Virus record (IMG/VR): IMGVR_UViG_3300005253_000193
Coordinates: 41,964-105,963 of that record
Source: a virus
DNA: 64,000 nucleotides
Strand: one strand, 5' to 3'
The position numbers and the translations under genes are program-made. Of this stretch, positions 45,842-46,171 are shown one piece after another (the stretch's first letter is position 1; every line of letters starts with the position of its first letter). The notes under the pieces are model-generated. The model had not been told where the DNA came from. It saw nothing but the letters and a program-made list of their open reading frames with translations, and ran no database searches.

Positions 45842-45918
45842 GGCCCGGTAAGGTCGTTCGTCAGTTTTGCGTAGACACTCCTGAAGTGTATGCTGTACTG
45901 ACAGACTAGTTCCGGGCC
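45842..45918 (-). ncRNA. Y RNA-like element 1
   Basis: Stem A is GGCCCGG/CCGGGCC at the ends (seven pairs). It can extend to 45838-45922 through AAG/CTT after one mismatch. The conserved asymmetric loop has AACTAG on the 5' side and CCTTA on the 3' side. Stem B is GTCAGT/ACTGAC (45897-45902 with 45860-45865). The tip is one hairpin, ACACT/AGTGT. It ends 26 bases before the Ro60-like start codon. Confidence 0.7.
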
Positions 45919-45940
45919 ACTTGGTCGTTCATTTTATTAC

Positions 45941-46023
45941 AGTCCGGTAAGGTTGTTCGTCGTGGTGCGTCATTGATCGACTTCAACGTCGAGGATGCTG
46001 TAACGGCGATCTAGTTCCGGACC
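45941..46023 (-). ncRNA. Y RNA-like element 2
   Basis: Stem A is GGTCCGG/CCGGACT (one G-U pair), followed by AACTAG against CCTTA as in the other copies. Stem B is TCGCCGT/ACGACGA with one mismatch. The tip hairpin is TCGAC/GTCGA. Sequences of both stems differ from elements 1 and 3 but pairing is kept. Confidence 0.7.
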
Positions 46024-46045
46024 TTTTTTAACAATTGGTTTAGGC

Positions 46046-46171
46046 GAGCCGGTAAGGATGTACGTTGTATTTGGTGGATGTGATTGGAATCGAACCAATT
46101 ACACACTGATTGAAGTCAGTTGCTCTACCGAATGAGCTACATATCCTGTAACAACGTTCTAGTTCCGGCCC
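46046..46171 (-). ncRNA. Y RNA-like element 3 with tRNA-like domain
   Basis: Stem A is GGGCCGG/CCGGCTC (one G-U pair), followed by the same AACTAG and CCTTA loop sides. Stem B is ACGTTGT/ACAACGT, seven perfect pairs. Between the strands of stem B sits a full tRNA-like sequence (46072-46146). This is the architecture of YrlA-type bacterial Y RNAs: a Ro60-binding stem carrying a tRNA-mimicking module. Confidence 0.75.
46072..46146 (-). tRNA. tRNA-like domain (anticodon-like UCA, 6-nt loop)
   Basis: The 75-nt sequence folds as acceptor GGATATG/CACATCC (one A-C mismatch) plus discriminator A and encoded CCA, D arm GCTC/GAGC with GG in the loop, anticodon arm ACTGA/TCAGT, and T arm ATTGG/CCAAT with loop TTCGATT. 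The anticodon loop CTTCAA has only six bases. If U33 is kept, the anticodon would be UCA, which reads UGA. The short loop and the mismatch argue for a tRNA mimic inside the Y-like RNA, but a true tRNA is not excluded. Confidence 0.6.

Follow-up and report, generated by a model that had tools for sequence, protein, structure and literature searches.

In the bacterial Y RNA YrlA, the basal stem binds the Ro60-type protein Rsr and the tRNA-like end, composed of the D, T, and acceptor arms, is the acting part; the RYPER complex is described in the same study (PMC8394870). When a bacterial Y RNA (6CU1) is superposed on tRNA, the two are related by a circular permutation (PMC11472068), and YrlA has been suggested to act as a competitor for an anticodon nuclease (PMC7790460). 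Phage-encoded tRNAs have been reported to counter tRNA-targeting defenses (PMC10264068, PMC11555353). Here we describe three RNA elements adjoining the gene of a protein with a predicted Ro60 fold in 64,000 nucleotides of viral DNA (the window; positions 41,964 to 105,963 of IMG/VR record IMGVR_UViG_3300005253_000193, a virus contig of 105,963 bases). The three appear to be small structured RNAs of one family with a selected two-stem handle. The best overall explanation, which we regard as fairly probable, is that the handle of this RNA family binds the Ro60-like protein, with a tRNA mimic displayed at the far end.

On the minus strand, each element reads as stem A, an AACTAG block, stem B, a TACAG block, a payload, the second side of stem B, a CCTTA block, and the second side of stem A. 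The positions and stem sequences agree with those of the initial annotation, in which element 1, numbered here in transcript order, was the third (Table 1). TACAG, which had been missed, is a third constant block besides AACTAG and CCTTA, the two sides of an asymmetric internal loop; the tRNA enclosed by element 1 had likewise gone unnoted. Stem A is pairable in all three elements, with one G·U pair each in elements 1 and 2. The claim that the stems vary while pairing is retained thus stands for stem A, but stem B of element 2 (TCGCCGT/ACGACGA) contains a C·A mismatch and is hence not fully paired. Moreover, only one pair of stem A is altered on both sides within the window, so that these three copies, initially presented as proof of two helices, are insufficient for that purpose.

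Selection on two RNA helices around an internal loop is borne out by homologous loci. Relatives were obtained solely via the protein; scanning viral contigs at the DNA level for the motif of the window gave no matches. A protein sequence search identified two phage relatives, one more in a 462-kb phage, and nine in bacterial genomes, mostly planctomycetes, and a profile search identified 32 phage loci and further planctomycetes. A scaffold was found upstream of the Ro60-fold gene, on the gene strand, in about 30 phage contigs, in planctomycetes, in one myxobacterium, and in one Bacteroidetes metagenome-assembled genome. Most loci carry arrays, and the final list comprises 83 candidate elements from 32 loci, including a few doubtful ones. 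A first scaffold finder returned many false matches in coding DNA and was superseded by a motif-only test together with strand and background controls. Scaffold matches numbered 46 in the 28.8 kb upstream on the gene strand, compared with 5 on the other strand and 29 across 231 kb of other sequence, and no enrichment was detected at canonical Rsr loci. Three canonical planctomycete Rsr genes (L099, L101, and L104) have at least two YrlA-type RNAs adjoining.

For the motif-only test, 71 five-prime arms were picked without using pairing, and the null was generated by exchanging arms between loci. A stem A partner offering at least 6 Watson-Crick pairs was present for 38 of the 71 arms, at least 7 pairs for 21, and at least 8 for 12, compared with 9%, 2%, and 0.3% under the null. 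A motif-blind helix search found ACT directly after stem A in 33 helix pairs and in none from shuffled sequence. Furthermore, given 25 tRNA-type elements aligned by MAFFT without constraints, RNAalifold recovered both scaffold stems as well as the D, anticodon, and T arms, with compensatory changes in 26 of the 27 pairs. Both helices covary in this alignment, whose elements were collected by a pairing-based finder: stems A and B together scored 0.629 for covariation versus 0.265 ± 0.025 in shuffles that leave relatedness in place, and none of 500 shuffles reached that score. Paired cells amounted to 83.6% versus 61.7%, and cells altered on both sides to 79 versus 28; the two stems also exceeded every slide, in paired cells as well as in covariation score. 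The motif-only and motif-blind tests are without pairing-selection bias, and the sequences come from diverse phages and from several phyla.

The core that is best conserved among homologs is R-ACT following stem A, together with CAG following stem B. The constancy of the internal loop described initially holds within the window, but CCTTA varies elsewhere to forms such as CTA, TTA, and CCCC. In a distant planctomycete branch of Ro60-like genes (L033-L038 and L079-L085), a single scaffold element stands right before the gene in 11 of 15 loci, and its stems covary (CCGTTCG/CGAACGG, TCGTCCG/CGGACGA, and GCGCCTG/CAGGCGC); in a Minicystis relative of this branch, an ARPP-2 gene follows.

The 545-residue protein encoded next to the elements was modeled with AlphaFold (pLDDT 81; pTM 0.80), and the model combines in one chain the two parts of a Ro60 fold, a helical N-terminal part (residues 27-360) and a VWA domain (residues 367-535). 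Ro60 entries headed both structure lists, and the nine best Foldseek matches were Ro60/TROVE proteins; the match to Xenopus Ro extended over 412 residues with a Z score of 17.4, a root-mean-square deviation of 5.3, and 14% identity. Invariant residues of the family include D375, S377, and S379 of the VWA domain and H188; in human Ro60, H187 is the histidine that contacts Y RNA (PMC4030889). The helical part, the VWA domain, and the nearly full-length structural match are thus shared with Xenopus Ro (1YVR), Deinococcus Rsr (2NVO), and the Ro60 of Thermus phage phiLo (9L5Y), whereas the window protein shows 12-15% identity to this group, is unrecognized by PF05731 and PF25045, and is linked to ARPP-1. 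Because the neighboring protein has a predicted Ro60 fold, a protein-binding role of the loop is the natural reading, and by analogy with YrlA we consider RACT/(C)TA (ACT/CCTTA in the window) likely to be the contact.

The far ends of the elements carry variable payloads. In element 1, a near-complete tRNA with an encoded ACCA is attached to stem B by the acceptor stem, which contains one A·C mismatch. The anticodon loop, CTTCAA, has 6 nucleotides rather than the 7 of an ordinary tRNA, and ARAGORN assigned a two-letter anticodon. Because of the acceptor mismatch and the shortened loop, this payload is no decoding tRNA in its present form. Unlike element 1, elements 2 and 3 carry short hairpins. 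Two other phages have ARAGORN two-letter-anticodon tRNAs upstream of the gene, as in the window (L049, 3573-3646; L064, 3640-3714). Payloads elsewhere include whole tRNAs with varied anticodons, and near-identical planctomycete elements (L006, L007, and L008) differ mostly in the anticodon loop (ATG, CTT, and TTT). A further group consists of permuted tRNAs whose acceptor is sealed and whose opening lies near the acceptor/D junction (L072, L073, and L074), between the D and anticodon arms (L004, L005, and L013), in the anticodon stem (L014 and L067), or ahead of the T arm (L004, L005, L060, L061, and L069). A junction-spanning ARAGORN test called five permuted elements, none of which had a direct tRNA match, compared with 0 of 1280 shuffled controls and 3 of 630 other pieces; permuted payloads beyond these five were assigned by eye. 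Of 33 short payloads, 14 have a 7-nucleotide hairpin loop, compared with 2.0 ± 1.3 in shuffles, and 7 of the 33 combine such a loop with T at position 33 and a purine at position 37, compared with 0.2 in shuffles.

Three Ro60-like loci lie within large tRNA arrays, with about 24, 37, and 34 tRNA genes called in about 9.5 kb (L007, L013, and L054, respectively). One planctomycete payload (L078, 1015-1207, identical to L110, 1578-1770) includes 22 nucleotides identical to the 23S rRNA of its own genome (TATGACGGTCCTAAGGTAGCGA), and the 18-nucleotide core of this stretch has exactly two copies in the genome, in the payload and the 23S gene. Rfam RF04354 (Plastid-ycf2) gave matches below its cut-off at window positions 46074-46146 (plus strand) and in L002, L007, L013, and L068; because these fall on the reverse complement of tRNAs, this family looks like an antisense tRNA model.

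These features can be set against YrlA (Rfam RF02553) with Rsr/Ro60. In both, the paired RNA ends form an outer stem, an asymmetric internal loop, and an inner stem, a tRNA mimic occupies the far end, and the RNA gene lies near a Ro60-type protein gene. The elements thus have two features of Y RNAs: their 5′ and 3′ ends pair into a stem that a loop or bulge interrupts, and their genes adjoin a Ro60-type gene, upstream of it in most loci. The permuted payload of L067 matches the effector part of YrlA (34.9 bits and E 2e-6 for that stretch, below the 69-bit cut-off). The YrlA consensus, however, is GCGAAUGC...CUUGUCGC, whereas the scaffold here is RACT...CAG...TA, and payloads here are of several kinds, namely whole tRNAs, tRNAs permuted in several registers, and single hairpins; an anticodon arm is often present, and the payloads are arranged in arrays. 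The window itself lacks a YrlA-type permuted effector domain, its tRNA payload being unpermuted, and its elements do not match the YrlA Y-stem consensus. The loci also resemble phage tRNAs that evade tRNA-cutting defenses in being phage-borne tRNA sequences, some of them in large tRNA arrays, but the tRNA here is enclosed in a hairpin handle and would not be chargeable as such, and the anticodon loop of the window copy is shortened.

Several results weigh against a Ro60-Y RNA assignment. The window protein matched no Pfam family up to E 10, and thus neither TROVE (PF05731) nor vWA_Ro60 (PF25045), and stayed under every threshold in Pfam, NCBIfam, PHROG, and PADLOC; two of its relatives have only weak VWA matches in Pfam, PF05731 was not found in the phage's own genome, and a sequence search of the PDB with this protein gave no match. 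Comparison with true TROVE proteins by hhalign (probability 77%, E 2e-5) covered the VWA region only. The suggested involvement of Ro60 is therefore supported in part, by the predicted fold of the neighboring protein, while no sequence family recognizes this protein, and we describe it as Ro60-like by predicted fold but not as a recognized member by sequence profile. On the RNA side, Rfam Y RNA families had no match in window positions 45750-46300 up to E 10, many short payloads have no 7-nucleotide loop, including both short ones of the window in the predicted fold, and the plus-strand folds of the three elements have lower folding energy.

The last point favors an opposite orientation, in which classical Y RNAs (AAGG...CTAG) would be transcribed from the plus strand, divergently from the Ro60-like gene, and by eye the plus strand does resemble a vertebrate Y stem. 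The evidence from homologous loci speaks for the other strand: the 23 full tRNA payloads listed all read in the gene direction, scaffold matches are enriched on the gene strand (46 versus 5), and among irregular pairs in ACT-anchored helices G·U outnumbers A·C by 8 to 2. No Rfam Y RNA match was obtained on either strand. The minus strand was taken as the RNA strand because of payload direction, strand enrichment, and pair types, which speak against the plus-strand reading; we reject that reading and rate it the least probable of those considered. Nearly as improbable is that the elements are remnants of ordinary phage tRNA genes between chance inverted repeats. Payloads do score as tRNA and several loci lie inside large tRNA arrays, but this reading is contradicted by the covariation of the flanking stems, which extends across phages and bacterial phyla. 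Constant motifs are also present in these stems' surroundings, the anticodon loop of the window payload has 6 nucleotides, and no scaffold was present beside the phage's three ordinary tRNAs, where it was searched for.

On the preferred explanation, the three RNAs would be transcribed and processed from the minus strand together with the Ro60-like and ARPP-1 genes. By analogy with the YrlA basal stem (PMC8394870), the two-stem end (stem A, the RACT/(C)TA internal loop, and stem B) would be the handle and would probably bind the Ro60-like ring as the Y stem of YrlA does. The far end would show a tRNA mimic, namely an acceptor-joined whole tRNA, a permuted tRNA whose acceptor is sealed, or a hairpin, often with a 7-nucleotide loop, which would not be chargeable while inside the scaffold. 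The favored role of such mimics is to stand in for tRNA: they may serve as decoys or competitors for enzymes that cut or handle tRNA, and as gates on the Ro60 ring. The displayed part seems to matter, because anticodon-type hairpins are enriched among payloads otherwise stripped of tRNA, and this enrichment fits decoys or sensors for tRNA-targeting enzymes.

Function as a decoy or competitor is put forward only tentatively, and function as a PNPase-type tether or quality-control gate is a further, somewhat weaker possibility. Were the RNAs to work as YrlA does in RYPER, they would tether a nuclease such as PNPase to the ring of the Ro60-like protein, leaving the anticodon part incidental. The overall architecture shared with YrlA and the YrlA-type payload in L067 are consistent with this; the YrlA tRNA-like domain, however, consists of the D, T, and acceptor arms (PMC8394870), whereas most tRNA payloads here retain the anticodon arm and 7-nucleotide loops are overrepresented among short payloads. 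Tethering of this kind, in itself doubtful, is about as likely as the decoy role. A cis-acting leader before the start codon that regulates the Ro60-like operon, for example through protein autoregulation or tRNA-like titration, appears unlikely: the last element ends 26 nucleotides before the ATG on the same strand, and in the distant planctomycete paralogs one scaffold immediately precedes the gene, but in several loci the elements are numerous, some lying about 1 kb upstream in the vicinity of ordinary tRNA genes, and payload diversity of this extent is unexpected for a leader switch. A speculative extension of the decoy proposal is that the array forms a modular library, in which one Ro60-binding handle would present anticodon loops (as whole or permuted tRNAs or hairpins) and, in a planctomycete, one 23S rRNA piece, as bait or sensors for tRNA- or rRNA-cutting ribonucleases, with ARPP-1 as the conserved partner.

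The elements belong to a minus-strand cluster of ARPP-1, the Ro60-like gene, the three RNA elements, and then DnaB-type helicase and topoisomerase genes (Table 1). An ARPP-1 homolog was present in 31 of 37 loci compared, on the gene strand and 3′ of the Ro60-like gene every time. The ARPP-1 model is confident (pLDDT 91), yet its fold had no convincing match in the PDB (best Foldseek E 0.07; best Z 3.6) and therefore provides no mechanism for this partner. No RtcB was found in the phage record, and a search of the literature available to us found no report on the Ro60-like protein family or on ARPP-1 function.

Table 1 Features of the RNA locus in the window
Feature	Position	Strand	Composition	Basis
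Scaffold element 1	46046..46171	minus	Stem A GGGCCGG/CCGGCTC, AACTAGA, stem B ACGTTGT/ACAACGT, TACAG, tRNA payload, ACATCCTTA	Sequence; structure kept in homologs
tRNA payload of element 1	46072..46146	minus	Acceptor stem joined to stem B	Rfam tRNA, 58 bits; ARAGORN
Scaffold element 2	45941..46023	minus	Stem A GGTCCGG/CCGGACT, stem B TCGCCGT/ACGACGA, TACAG, payload hairpin TCGAC-GTTGAA-GTCGA	Sequence
Scaffold element 3	45842..45918	minus	Stem A GGCCCGG/CCGGGCC, stem B TGTCAGT/ACTGACG, TACAG, short payload hairpin ACACTTCAGGAGTGT	Sequence
Gene of protein with predicted Ro60 fold	44178..45815	minus	545 amino acids	AlphaFold model; Ro60 heads PDB structure lists
ARPP-1 gene (PF20208)	42975..43976	minus	Conserved partner downstream of Ro60-like gene	Pfam, 76.6 bits

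Collectively, we read this system as a divergent branch of the Ro60-Y RNA (YrlA) system with uncharged tRNA mimics, possibly decoys. On this reading, the Ro60-Y RNA system would extend to a protein family unnamed in the family databases searched and to RNAs in which tRNA mimicry is a swappable module, since one and the same handle carries a tRNA joined at the acceptor, opened elsewhere in the cloverleaf, or reduced to one hairpin. Natural variants that keep or drop single tRNA parts make the role of the tRNA-like end of Y RNAs testable, in particular the competition for an anticodon nuclease that has been suggested for YrlA (PMC7790460).
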